DNA of 64,000 nt, from contig CAJAVU010000055.1 in the NCBI GenBank assembly GCA_903945495.1, forward strand, positions 1 through 64,000, written 5' to 3'. Shown piece after piece: positions 18,986 to 56,736 of the stretch. The DNA comes from an uncultured Flavobacteriales bacterium (GTDB taxonomy: Bacteria > Bacteroidota > Bacteroidia > Flavobacteriales_D > Crocinitomicaceae). Below the pieces are notes generated by a model. The model was not told the origin of the DNA and made no database searches. It worked only from the letters and a program-made list of their open reading frames with translations. A program made the position numbers and the translations under genes. Position 1 is the first letter of the stretch; each line of letters starts with the position of its first letter.

Positions 18986-19016
18986 TTTGCAACAATTTAG
19001 AACTCGTCTAAATTTG
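18986..19016 (+). promoter_or_regulatory. Promoter overlapped by a metal-repressor-like palindrome (small RNA candidate)
   Basis: TTTG (18986-18989) and TAAATTTG (19009-19016) have a 19-base spacer, a full match to the Bacteroidota promoter. The palindrome ATTTAGA-N5-TCTAAAT at 18995-19013 sits between and over the two boxes, as a repressor site would. A closely similar palindrome lies before the FecA-like receptor at 56626-56644. Confidence 0.7.
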
Positions 19017-19021
19017 TATCA

Positions 19022-19127
19022 TAAATAAGTCGAAAATATTATATCAATATATATAGAAGTCTTTTTCAGTGAATAGTGGTTAGGTTAGGTTAGAAAAACA
19101 GTTCGGTTCTCGAACTGTTTTTTTTTT
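19022..19127 (+). ncRNA. Candidate small RNA, possibly metal-regulated
   Basis: A perfect promoter and a strong terminator bracket about 105 bases that hold no credible reading frame. The predicted RNA has an AT-rich 5' half, a GGTTA triple repeat at about 19079-19093 that would be single-stranded, and the terminator stem. It lies on the plus strand between rnhA and metH, both on the minus strand. The transcription start is estimated from promoter spacing only. The remaining 18609-18985 spacer shows nothing else. Confidence 0.6.
19095..19127. terminator. Bidirectional terminator between the small RNA and metH
   Basis: AAAACAGTTCG pairs with CGAACTGTTTT around loop GTTCT, with ten T on the plus strand and five T on the minus strand. 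It can end both the plus-strand small transcript and metH, whose stop is 22 bases away. Confidence 0.88.
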
Positions 19128-19148
19128 GCCTATTAAATTCTATTCACA

Positions 19149-22878: not shown

Positions 22879-22930
22879 CATAGTATAAATACAATAAACT
22901 ATGAACAAAGAGAAGTACGAATGTACACCA

Positions 22931-23035
22931 ACTTATCTTTTCAGCCCTTCGACTGATTGGATTTGGCACCTATTCCGAGTATCGGAGGTTGCCAAGGTTT
23001 CACAGGGCCTAATCCCTCCACCTTTCTTCATAAGT
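22931..23035 (-). promoter_or_regulatory. SAM-I (S-box) riboswitch controlling metH
   Basis: Read on the minus strand, the leader matches the S-box core: ACTTAT opening P1, GGTGGAGGGA, GGCCCTGTGAAACC, TGGCAACC, a variable P3 arm, GGTGCCAAATCC, and GATAAGT closing P1. S-adenosylmethionine binding is expected to switch off the metH pair. No terminator hairpin with a T run lies between aptamer and start codon (53 bases), so control may act on translation or by another means. Confidence 0.92.
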
Positions 23036-23054
23036 TTATTTAAATGAACTGCGA

Positions 23055-36084: not shown

Positions 36085-36286
36085 TTTAAGATAAAATGTA
36101 CCAAAACGTTTTTTCTTGCGTTAAAGGGAAAACATCAAGAGTTTCTGGAGTAAAATCTGGAATGCCAACCGATCTGACAAGGCGCGGTGGAAAAGAGATG
36201 TGAGGCAGGGGCCTAAAAATAACTGTACACTTCCCCCCTTATCTTTTCTTGGTGTGTAATTGTTTAACCATTTAAATTTTTACACG

Positions 36287-51862: not shown

Positions 51863-53977
51863 ATGAAGTTAAAAATTAACGTATTACTAATTTTGTTGCT
51901 TACTGGAACATTTTACAGTTTCGCACAAAACAATATGGGTATTGGTACAAATACTCCAGATCCTTCAGCTTTGGTGGATATGCAAGCGACAGACAAAGGT
52001 ATGCTAGTGCCACGTATGACAACAGCGCAACGAACTGCTATAGTGAGTCCAGCGAATGCACTTTTAGTGTATGACACGGACGTACAATGTTTTTATTATT
52101 TTAAAACAGCAACTGGTTGGACAAACTTATGTACAGGAATTGTTGGACCTGCTGGACCTGCTGGACCTGCTGGACCGCAAGGTGCAATGGGATTAACTGG
52201 ACCTGCTGGTGCAACGGGAGCACAAGGACCAATTGGTTTAACAGGTGCAACTGGACCTGCAGGACCTGCAGGTGCAAATGGAATTGATGGTGTAACTGGG
52301 CCTCAAGGAATTCAAGGGCCTGTTGGTCCACAAGGACCGCAAGGAGCATCGATTTTAGGTGCGGCTGGTGCTGATGGAGCTACTGGGCCTCAAGGACCAA
52401 TCGGATTAACTGGTGCTACTGGACCGGCTGGTGCAGACGGTGCTACTGGACCACAAGGACCGATTGGATTAAGTGGACCTGCTGGAACAAATGGAATTGA
52501 CGGAGCAGTTGGACCTCAAGGACCAATCGGATTAACTGGTGCTACTGGGCCTGCGGGTGCAGACGGTGCTACTGGACCTCAAGGACCAATCGGATTAACT
52601 GGTGCAACTGGACCGGCTGGTGCAGACGGTGCTACTGGACCACAAGGACCGATTGGATTAACTGGACCTGCTGGAACAAATGGAATTGACGGAGCAGTTG
52701 GTGCAACAGGACCACAAGGACCGATTGGTTTAACCGGACCTGCTGGAGCTGACGGAGCAACTGGACCGCAAGGACCGATTGGTTTGACAGGTGCGACTGG
52801 AGCTACGGGTGCTACGGGTGCTACTGGACCAACAGGATTAACTGGTGCGACTGGACCACAAGGACCGATTGGGTTAACCGGACCTGCTGGAGCTGACGGA
52901 GCAACTGGACCTGCGGGTGCAACTGGAGCTACTGGAGCAGTTGGACCACAAGGACCAATTGGGTTGACAGGTGCGACTGGAGCTACGGGTGCTACTGGAC
53001 CACAAGGACCGATTGGGTTAACTGGTCCAACAGGAGCTACTGGTGCAACTGGACCAACAGGGCCTACTTGGACATTAACTACTCCAACGGTTAATCCTAC
53101 AGGAACGTTAACAATCAATGCAACTGCAGGATCATTGGCTCCTGTTACCACTTTAGGACAATATTGGATTGCTTCACCAAACGCAGCAGGTACAAATGCA
53201 TTAACAGCAACAGGCTATTTGGGAACATCTACAAATCAACACATGGATTTGGTATCAAATAACTTAGTTCGTGGTCGTTTGTCGAATCTTGGAGAATTTT
53301 TCATTGGTACAACGAATACGGTTTTAACAGGGGATTTAATGAATGGTGTGTCAAATGCAGCCTTTCCATGGGCTGTGAATGGATACAGTGCATTTAACGG
53401 TTCTGGTGTTTATGGATCGGTAACCTCAGGAGGAACTATTTTTGCTGGTGTGCAAGGGGAATATTATGGGACAAATACTGCCGGTGCAGGTGTTAGAGGA
53501 ATTGCTGGTGCAGGAACTAACAATGGTGTAAACGGTTCAAACGCAGCGCCGACTTCTGGTTGGGGTGGTTTATTTCAAGGTGATTTAGGTTACACTGGAT
53601 TTTTCGGAATTGCTTCAGACCGACGTGTAAAACAAAATATTCAAACAATTCCAAATGCACTAGATATTATAAAGAGCTTAAGAGGAACAACCTACGAACA
53701 TAATTTGAGTGCATATCCAGACTTAGGATTGAAAACAGGCATTAACTACGGATTCATTGCACAAGAAGTAGAGGAAGTACTACCCAATCTTGTCCGCGAG
53801 AAAAACATTCCTCACATAGAAAGCACAGTGCGTGGATCGAAAGAAACAGTAGATTCAGAACAACTAAAGACTGTTAGTTATATTGAGATTGTTCCAATTT
53901 TAGTTGAGGCAATTAAAGAACAACAAGAATTAATTGATGAAATGAAAAAAGAAATTGAATTGCTGAAACAAAAGTAA
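51863..53977 (+). CDS. Collagen-like protein with Peptidase_S74 intramolecular chaperone tail
   Basis: The 704-residue protein has a signal peptide and a short globular domain ([31 protein letters not shown]). It then has a Gly-X-Y collagen region (about 94-405) with repeats of [20 protein letters not shown]. The C-terminal domain ([26 protein letters not shown]) is the S74 tail chaperone found in phage tail spikes and bacterial fibres, which trimerises and may cleave itself. It lacks a T9SS sorting domain. Trimerisation by S74 fits a collagen stem. It follows a type B protein by 27 bases. Confidence 0.88.
52142..53070 (+). repeat. Long nearly identical coding repeats in the collagen region
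   Basis: DNA blocks of 45-120 bases recur with few changes in the Gly-X-Y part of the gene. The blocks keep the frame open on both strands, giving a false 190-residue antisense frame. Such repeats favour recombination and copy-number change. Confidence 0.85.
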
Positions 53978-54107: not shown

Positions 54108-56558
54108 TTAAAACATTCTCGCGCGCAATCCAACTTGGAATGCTCTTGGCATTCCTGGACGCACACCTGCTGGACGAGCAGAAACGATATAGACTTCGTT
54201 TGTTAAGTTTGTTCCGCTGGCGAATAAACTGATGTTGCGACTTGCTTGATATGAAACACTTGCGTCGAACACTGCCACTTGTGGAATCAAATCAATACCA
54301 GTTACTTTGTCGTTTCCTGCCACAGCGCGCATTTCAGAAGTGTATTTAAATCCTGCGTTTAGCATCCATTTGTGGTATTCGAATGATAAACCAAGGTTCA
54401 ATTGGTGTTGTGCTAAATACGGTAAGCGATCGCCTTTTGAAACCGTTCCCCAATCTTCGAAGGTGCTCACGAAATCTGTAAGGAAACGCGCATCAGAATA
54501 GGTGTATGAAACTGTGAACGGCAAACGAAATTCTTTCTTCAACTGTTTTGCAATGTCATAACAAACAAAAACTTCCAAACCTTGTGCAAATGATTTTCCG
54601 CCGTTGAACAAATCACCTGTTCCAGCACCACCGCTAGCTGCTAAATCCGATCCCAATAAATTACTGTAAGCATTGTAGAACGCAACAATTTGTCCTTTCA
54701 ACACATTCGAAGCGTATTTCACACCTCCTTCATAGTTTACACTTTCTTCTGCTTTCGTTTCTGGTTTTGCGGATGGTGGAGAAAATCCTTTGTGAACGCC
54801 GACAAATCCCGTCAATTTTTCAGTGAAGGTATAATCGAACGCCGCTCCTGGAATCCAAACAGAAACCGTATTTTCACTGCGCACTAAGTTTGTTCCCACA
54901 CGTTCTGGATCATTTTTACCGTAATCTTTTTCAGACATGTAAATGGATTCGTTGCGAACACCCGCTGTTAAACTCATGCGTTTGTATGCCACCTTGTATT
55001 GAATGTACGACGCCAAGGCAGAAGCAAATGCAATTCGATTACTTTCACGTCCCAATTCACCAGCTGCAGTTTGCATCATGTTTCCGCCCAACATTTGGTA
55101 TTTATCCTCATTCTGAAAACGATCCATTCCATCTTGGTGGTAGCGAAGTCCTAAATCTATGTTGTGTGCGAAACCTTTAGTTTTGAACTCAGCATTCAAG
55201 ACTGTTTGCGCTCCGTGTCCGAAGTACGCACGATTGTTTCCTTTTACGAACAAGGCATCTGCATTGTCACTTGTTTCACCGCGTAAAATTGCCATGTGAG
55301 AAGCATACGCAACTGGATCACGCAAAATATCTGCAATTCCTTTCTTCACGCCGGCACTGTCTTTTACTGCATCCAATTTATACCAGTTACGCGAAAAGTC
55401 ATTGCGGTAAATCACGGTCGTAATGTCCAACCATTTTGCTGCTTTGATTGTATGTGTAGCACTCAATTGTGTTTGTTGCACCGTCATTTGATCTTTCTGT
55501 GAAGCAGCGTAACGAGAATATGGGTTCGCATTGAAATCATCCAAACTCAAACCTAAATACGTATCATTTGACACTTCTTTGTTAAGGCCTGCTTTAAAAG
55601 TGATTGATTGTTGGATGCGCGCTGTTTTCTTTGTTGAGAAACGCAATTTCGCCAAGTAATCATATTTATTAAATCCAGTTGAAGCACCATTTTCCAAGGT
55701 TTTGAAACCATCTGACCCATAATGAAATGCTTCTACTGAATAAGCAATTTGTCCATGATTGTTTCCAACGTACGCATGTAGGTTTCGCCCAAAATAACTC
55801 CCACCAACAGCACTCACTTTCGCTAAAAACTGCGAAGGCAATTGTGTTGAAATAAGGTTGATGGCTCCACCAGTTGTGTACGGACCATATTTAATTTGCG
55901 AACTTCCTTTTAAGATTTCAACTGCTTGCATGCGTCCAACCGTTGGGAAATAATATGCAGCAGATGCAGAATATGGAGCTGGCGCACTTAACACACCATC
56001 TTCCATTACCGTAATTTTCGTTGAACGTTCTACTCCTGCTCCGCGTAAACCAATGTTTGGACGTAAACCAAAACCATCTTCCTCTTGTAAATTCACACCC
56101 GGAATACTTTTCAATATGCGGTTGATGTCGGTGTAATTGAATTTTTGTAGTTCTTTCGGTGAAATGTAATAGGCAGAACCCGGTAAGTTTTTCAATCCTT
56201 GTTCACCGCCTGTTAGTGAAGTTCCTTTTACGGTTACATCTGGCAAAAGGTGTTGCTCAGCTAAAACAACATCAACTGTTAATTCAGACAATGGTTTTAA
56301 TTCGATCTCCATTGAATATTGCATGAAACCGTTTCCTGAAAAATAGATATGATATTTTCCCTCTGCCACATTGTCAAATGCAAAACTCCCAAGCTCATCT
56401 GTAATTTCAATCAATTTTAATTCATGAATCTCCACCTTCACATCTTTCAACGGAAAATTGGAACCTTCGCTTTTCACTGTTCCTGTCAGTTTACTCGATT
56501 GAGAGAACACGACAAAATTCAATCCGACGAACAATCCAAGTAGAACAACTGATTTCAT
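54108..56558 (-). CDS. FecA-like TonB-dependent receptor
   Basis: The 816-residue outer-membrane protein has a signal peptide and a carboxypeptidase-regulatory-like domain (about 25-110, GTVKSEGSNFPLKDVKVEI). The plug (SIPGVNLQEEDGFGLRPNIGLRG, here in outline; about 118-235) and a beta-barrel ending in FQVGLRARMF follow. FecA-type receptors import ferric citrate or ferric siderophores with TonB energy. A palindrome with iron-box appearance lies at its promoter. The substrate is not proved. Confidence 0.9.
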   Translation of the reverse strand: MKSVVLLGLFVGLNFVVFSQSSKLTGTVKSEGSNFPLKDVKVEIHELKLIEITDELGSFAFDNVAEGKYHIYFSGNGFMQYSMEIELKPLSELTVDVVLAEQHLLPDVTVKGTSLTGGEQGLKNLPGSAYYISPKELQKFNYTDINRILKSIPGVNLQEEDGFGLRPNIGLRGAGVERSTKITVMEDGVLSAPAPYSASAAYYFPTVGRMQAVEILKGSSQIKYGPYTTGGAINLISTQLPSQFLAKVSAVGGSYFGRNLHAYVGNNHGQIAYSVEAFHYGSDGFKTLENGASTGFNKYDYLAKLRFSTKKTARIQQSITFKAGLNKEVSNDTYLGLSLDDFNANPYSRYAASQKDQMTVQQTQLSATHTIKAAKWLDITTVIYRNDFSRNWYKLDAVKDSAGVKKGIADILRDPVAYASHMAILRGETSDNADALFVKGNNRAYFGHGAQTVLNAEFKTKGFAHNIDLGLRYHQDGMDRFQNEDKYQMLGGNMMQTAAGELGRESNRIAFASALASYIQYKVAYKRMSLTAGVRNESIYMSEKDYGKNDPERVGTNLVRSENTVSVWIPGAAFDYTFTEKLTGFVGVHKGFSPPSAKPETKAEESVNYEGGVKYASNVLKGQIVAFYNAYSNLLGSDLAASGGAGTGDLFNGGKSFAQGLEVFVCYDIAKQLKKEFRLPFTVSYTYSDARFLTDFVSTFEDWGTVSKGDRLPYLAQHQLNLGLSFEYHKWMLNAGFKYTSEMRAVAGNDKVTGIDLIPQVAVFDASVSYQASRNISLFASGTNLTNEVYIVSARPAGVRPGMPRAFQVGLRARMF

Positions 56559-56625: not shown

Positions 56626-56644
56626 AATTAGAATGAGTCTAAAT
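56626..56644 (-). promoter_or_regulatory. Metal-repressor-like palindrome before the FecA-like receptor
   Basis: Read on the minus strand this is ATTTAGA-CTCAT-TCTAATT, one mismatch from the perfect palindrome ATTTAGA-N5-TCTAAAT at the small RNA promoter (18995-19013). A TATACC/TTTTTTG stretch follows as a possible -7 region. Iron-dependent repression by a Fur- or DtxR-type protein is the likely role. Confidence 0.55.
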
Positions 56645-56736
56645 AAAGGAAGGTGGAAATTTTGTTAAAAAACATAAAACATGGCATTAACTAGAACAAA
56701 TCTAAATAACCATTGTTTTTCAATAAAAACTTAATT

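Follow-up and report, generated by a model that had tools for sequence, protein, structure and literature searches.

A candidate FopS-like small RNA of Crocinitomicaceae, with a conserved GGUUA-containing core and, in one lineage, a putative metal operator

Introduction

A short intergenic region on a contig of an uncultured Flavobacteriales bacterium (Crocinitomicaceae) raises the question of whether it encodes a metal-responsive small RNA (sRNA) designed like RyhB, as a preliminary description of the sequence had proposed, or an RNA of another kind. Iron-repressed sRNAs are known in RyhB and in analogues such as IsrR. Riboregulation in Bacteroidota is known mainly from Bacteroides. The phylum has been reported to lack classical sRNA chaperones (PMC11697453). 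The FopS/GibS sRNAs of Bacteroides are multicopy; each has a sigma-A-type promoter and a single-stranded 5' part that leads into a terminator. They bind RbpB, an RRM protein, and the translation of SusC is repressed by FopS (PMC11697453).

Results

Anatomy of the locus

The locus lies in a window of 64,000 nucleotides (the whole stretch of DNA analysed). Its neighbours are two minus-strand genes, rnhA and the C-terminal portion of metH, which is split here. Its elements are the following.

18986..19016, plus strand: Bacteroidota-type promoter, TTTG-N19-TAAATTTG, found by pattern search (TTTG at 18986-18989, a 19-nt spacer, TAAATTTG at 19009-19016); upstream TAnnTTTG conserved
18995..19013, no strand: putative metal operator, palindrome ATTTAGA-ACTCG-TCTAAAT, between and over the promoter boxes
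near 19022, plus strand: predicted transcription start
19022..19053, plus strand: A/T-rich 5' leader of the candidate RNA, little conserved beyond the closest relatives
19054..19093, plus strand: conserved unpaired core with 3' end CTTTTTCAGTGAATAGTGGTTAGGTTAGGTTAG, from the alignment and matches of model R1
19078..19093, plus strand: triple GGTTA repeat, common to the paralogues; possible seed, or binding site for an RRM protein
19094..19127, plus strand: intrinsic terminator, stem CAGTTCG/CGAACTG and T-run, from the fold; a terminator is at the same place in orthologues

The promoter, the perfect 7-5-7 palindrome placed over it, the ORF-free stretch and the strong terminator of the preliminary description were all recovered. 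The palindrome is exact and extends to 8-5-8; no ORF of note covers the core, the longest sense frame being 5 codons; and the terminator stem (19098-19117) is followed directly by the T-run (19118-19127), with 19022-19130 folding at -21 kcal/mol (z -2.4). The bare promoter pattern is not rare in the window (8 occurrences vs 5.5 expected). The extended box TAnnTTTG precedes the core in 28 of 37 orthologues, as against an occurrence in 4.4% of random 90-nt stretches. An E. coli-type sigma-70 scan gave matches near the site that are on the minus strand, and the region has fewer matches than its shuffles. Promoter, conserved core and terminator together argue for the small RNA gene that had been claimed.

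Several neighbouring features were recorded in passing. The two metH genes encode 341 and 892 aa; the window holds two SAM-type riboswitches (SAM and SAM-I/IV), one at 22930-23036 (minus strand) upstream of the 341-aa half and the other at 36127-36230 (plus strand). Positions 51863-53977 encode a 704-aa protein with long collagen-like repeats.

Conservation of the core and of its position

The core sequence of 35 bases, GTCTTTTTCAGTGAATAGTGGTTAGGTTAGGTTAG, is nearly invariant in 46 aligned family sequences. Homologues of the locus were found in 20 of 26 congeners and in many other genomes of the family; some congeners lack the RNA. Within the genus the RNA and metH converge, with 55-90 nt separating the RNA from the end of metH, and rnhA mostly stands on the other side. 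Leader and terminator sequences vary among the orthologues, and only the presence of a terminator at the same place is kept. The consensus structure that RNAalifold drew from the MAFFT alignment was dismissed as an artefact of misaligned terminators, and the covariance model R1 acts mainly through the core.

The preliminary description had suggested a covariance search for homologues and asked about conservation outside the terminator. Run on 349 genomes of the order, R1 gave strong matches (E < 1e-6) in about 60, which belong without exception to the locus's own family, Crocinitomicaceae, and represent nine genera; the part conserved beyond the terminator is the core. Matches in other families of the order are weak, and the named records with matches are Crocinitomicaceae, Fluviicola sp. 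and Taishania pollutisoli. Judged from these sequences, the locus is conserved far more than chance would allow.

A multicopy family

The motif GGTT(T)AGGTTA is present at about twenty places of this genome. Those within genes are mostly Gly-Leu-Gly codons or antisense to coding sequence, and six are intergenic units, each followed by a terminator: the 18986-19127 locus itself (contig C55), two on C70 and one each on C106, C95 and C11. The complete Fluviicola-type genome G086 has nine intergenic places, about eight of which count as units: six pass a strict terminator test, and two more have a hairpin with a short T-run; many carry a TAnnTTTG-like box just upstream, and the predicted transcripts are of about 70 nt. 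Elsewhere the copies stand two or three in tandem in some genomes and are dispersed, several per genome, in others. Outside the family, the Bacteroidota genomes G423 and G450 have intergenic motif matches with no terminator, and a Bacteroides-type genome (G657) has two with one.

From sequence comparison, the larger finding is thus a multicopy sRNA family of Crocinitomicaceae that resembles FopS. No such family is described in the literature searched, and likewise no Rfam family exists for it. A tRNA- or tmRNA-like origin of one paralogue (E) was considered and rejected. An odd relative of the core is the intergenic stretch L193, 1480-1760 (minus strand) of G000:C65, which holds GAATAGTGGTTA twice and AGTGGTCAGGTTAGG once, with no evident terminator. 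A partial core, TTTTTCAGTGAATAGTGGTTAGGTTA, followed by a hairpin was observed at 1238-1259 of L170, a viral contig of 8.8 kb from IMG/VR whose genes are phage-like. Phages may help to spread the family; a search of phage records for the core returned none.

Possible kinship with FopS, and RRM proteins

No family exceeded its cut-off in the Rfam scan of the locus. The best match was FopS (RF04319), at full length (1-71), with 25.3 bits against a gathering cut-off of 56 and an E-value of 0.068 over all 4227 Rfam families. The FopS model gave no match on 20 other loci; it finds Bacteroides-type genomes only, plus weak matches in two others. A search of 208 kb with an HMM built from the 5' part of FopS gave nothing significant. 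Among several comparisons made, local alignment of the locus beat about 952 of 1000 shuffles with the FopS consensus and 996 of 1000 with a diverged Bacteroides FopS-like copy; a stretch of 16 bases, AGGTTTAGGTTAAAAA, is identical between that copy and a paralogue from this genome. Sequence kinship with FopS is suggestive only.

The likeness extends to organization. Both groups are multicopy, with a sigma-A-type promoter and a short single-stranded 5' part directly before the terminator; this part carries TTTTTCA and TTAG..AGGTTA, and RRM proteins are encoded in the same genomes. Unlike FopS/GibS, the Crocinitomicaceae RNA belongs to another order of Bacteroidota, differs in spacing and core (GTGAATAGTGGTTAGGTTAGG) and carries a putative metal operator at the present locus, and its core gave no SusC/TonB target signal in a comparison of duplex energies. 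As to the proteins, each of the 26 congeners encodes at least one RRM protein and nearly all encode two, and the two of this genome score just under the NCBIfam Rbp_regulator cut-off.

In this genome and its nearest relative (G007), the motif TTTAGGTTAG stands immediately before the start codon of a 136-aa RRM gene, and TTAGG lies within 60 nt upstream of 8 of 21 short-RRM loci vs 0 of 18 long-RRM loci, a count overstated by the relatedness of the loci. At L309, 1412-1474, the intercistronic region before the short RRM gene contains GTGAGTAAACTCAC, which forms a small hairpin, followed by TTTAGGTTAG up to the start codon. The RRM protein may therefore bind the motif and control its own gene. 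CsrB titrates CsrA, and these observations bring up an analogous reading, in which the UAG/GGUUA repeats would bind the short RRM protein and draw it away from its mRNAs, the RRM gene perhaps autoregulating through the same motif. As in the CsrB/RsmY sponges, a short motif is repeated in unpaired RNA, and there are several copies per genome, with repeats inside each; unlike them, the protein is an RRM protein and not CsrA, and the motif at the locus lies outside hairpin loops. In many congeners, however, the motif is missing before the RRM gene, and many have other short motifs there, for example AACCACT; the core, with its 20 or more fixed bases, also exceeds what a simple repeat would need. 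We consider titration as the function of the RNA possible, if on the unlikely side. A pairing of the core's AGTGGTT with the AACCACT before some RRM genes was also considered and dropped, as G009 and G014 have an AGTAGTT core yet keep AACCAC.

Candidate mRNA targets

The GGTTA repeat had been suggested as a seed. It does lie in the conserved part of the RNA, which is in keeping with the suggestion, but the starts of TonB receptors show no excess complementarity to the core: for the 24 TonB/SusC-type starts, duplex energies were no better than with shuffled cores, 207 of 300 of which did as well, in a weak test that ignores accessibility and covers one gene class. Anti-core matches across the genome are mainly other repeat units or coding sequence.

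The palindrome as a putative metal operator

The palindrome at 18995-19013 is the sole exact TTTAGAN5TCTAAA of the window, and exact W-flanked sites number three in the 3.64-Mb genome, this one included. An exact motif stands upstream of feoAB, and an exact and a 1-mismatch motif form a pair upstream of a TonB receptor gene on contig C59. Within the window, two further sites precede the gene at 54108-56558 (minus strand), whose product scores as a siderophore-type TonB receptor.

56627..56643, no strand: palindrome motif with 1 mismatch
56690-56706, no strand: weaker palindrome site with 2 mismatches

These account for the near match that had been noticed before a FecA-like receptor. The other 22 of the 24 TonB receptors of the genome have no motif within 200 bp. 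The genome encodes a DtxR/MntR-family regulator with a FeoA domain. With the same motif before feoAB and two TonB receptors, the proposed reading of the palindrome as a metal operator is plausible, and for this lineage a metal response is a well-supported hypothesis. The GGTTA repeat was rejected as a DtxR half-site in DNA, since its units are direct repeats within the transcript and recur before terminators.

The operator is found here and in one close relative, G007, and is absent from all other orthologues checked; none of the paralogues in this genome has it. Compared with G007, the upstream flank has diverged at 26.9% of its positions, while the palindrome (0 of 19 positions) and the core with terminator (0 of 71) are unchanged, which suggests that operator and RNA are selected together. 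In a separate genus (g5), this arrangement of promoter and operator precedes a predicted outer-membrane protein in five genomes (L416, L417, L418, L419 and L421), and in G028 a similar palindrome, TTTAGACTCGTCTAAA, precedes a TonB receptor. The g5 protein (ILTREDSLSAGL...) is uncharacterised, and the one tested has no Pfam or NCBIfam match.

On this evidence, a RyhB-type iron-sparing RNA can be weighed, that is, an iron-repressed RNA whose GGUUA core would pair with the mRNAs of iron proteins and shut them off in iron shortage. A promoter overlapped by an operator common to the iron-uptake genes feoAB and two TonB receptors is indeed what a RyhB-type RNA would have, and the conserved unpaired core could serve for pairing. 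The operator, however, is restricted to two species, whereas the RNA is family-wide, multicopy and mostly operator-free; the closest anti-core matches are other copies of the repeat or mostly coding sequence; and the Rfam scan showed no homology to RNAs of this type. The RyhB design initially proposed is therefore not upheld as the identity of the RNA, and we regard it as unlikely. Since the operator occurs in one lineage and the RNA throughout the family, iron control would be a local add-on and not the defining role of the family.

The palindrome could also be a chance resemblance at a promoter that metal does not control. The motif is common once mismatches are allowed (71 in the window vs 76 expected), a reversed control pattern is at least equally frequent genome-wide, and the other orthologues lack the operator. 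Sites with up to 2 mismatches, however, number about 206 per 3.64 Mb, or about 0.3% per 50-bp promoter, and exact sites are far rarer, so that a chance match at the 18986 promoter is unlikely. The match is exact and at the exact promoter position, the motif recurs at feoAB and TonB receptors, and it stayed unchanged beside a diverged flank and appears in the same layout in g5; we therefore judge coincidence improbable.

The kept distance from the metH end could suggest that the locus is no separate RNA gene but belongs to metH, as a 3' element or as a terminator acting in both directions. This is highly improbable, as the conserved part is the unpaired core and not the hairpin, and as the RNA has its own promoter and the same core occurs at many other places with promoters of their own.

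Discussion

The reading that we favour, and consider probable, is that the locus encodes a trans-acting sRNA resembling FopS, to which an RRM protein probably binds; this sRNA is one member of a family and in this genome has come under an iron-type repressor. The candidate RNA would be about 103 nt long, from 19022 to about 19125, and its functional part would be the unpaired core, whose GGUUA repeats immediately precede the terminator. By analogy with the FopS RNAs of Bacteroides, this fixed motif may pair with mRNAs, be held by an RRM-domain protein, or both. The sequences themselves show the anatomy of the locus, its conservation, the family, the operator motif held in common with uptake genes and the RRM proteins encoded; we infer that the locus is transcribed, repressed by metal, bound by an RRM protein and active on mRNAs: when metal is plentiful, an iron-type repressor (DtxR/MntR-like or Fur) would sit on the promoter in this species and its closest relative; in iron shortage the RNA would rise together with feoAB and the two TonB receptors, and its GGUUA core would then most likely pair with mRNAs, aided by an RRM protein, or titrate an RRM protein, or do both.

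Another conserved sRNA of Flavobacteriales, Rfp18 of Flavobacterium psychrophilum, is strongly folded, has its pairing region in the third stem-loop and is conserved in its own genus (PMC9723704). Unlike Rfp18, the present RNA has an unpaired core and a family that spans several genera, a distinction drawn from the description of Rfp18 only.

A broader reading would be a Bacteroidota class of multicopy sRNAs with GGUUA repeats just ahead of the terminator, with FopS as one branch and one copy captured by iron control here; the RRM proteins that bind these RNAs would themselves be autoregulated through the motif. As a whole we hold this to be speculative and rather unlikely; if true, the phylum would gain an iron-responsive RNA. 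From a conserved multicopy family in another order, with a fixed repeat core and with RRM proteins in the same genomes, one could tell whether the FopS/RbpB circuit is ancient in the phylum; one copy, through its operator, can be tested directly as an iron-responsive RNA.
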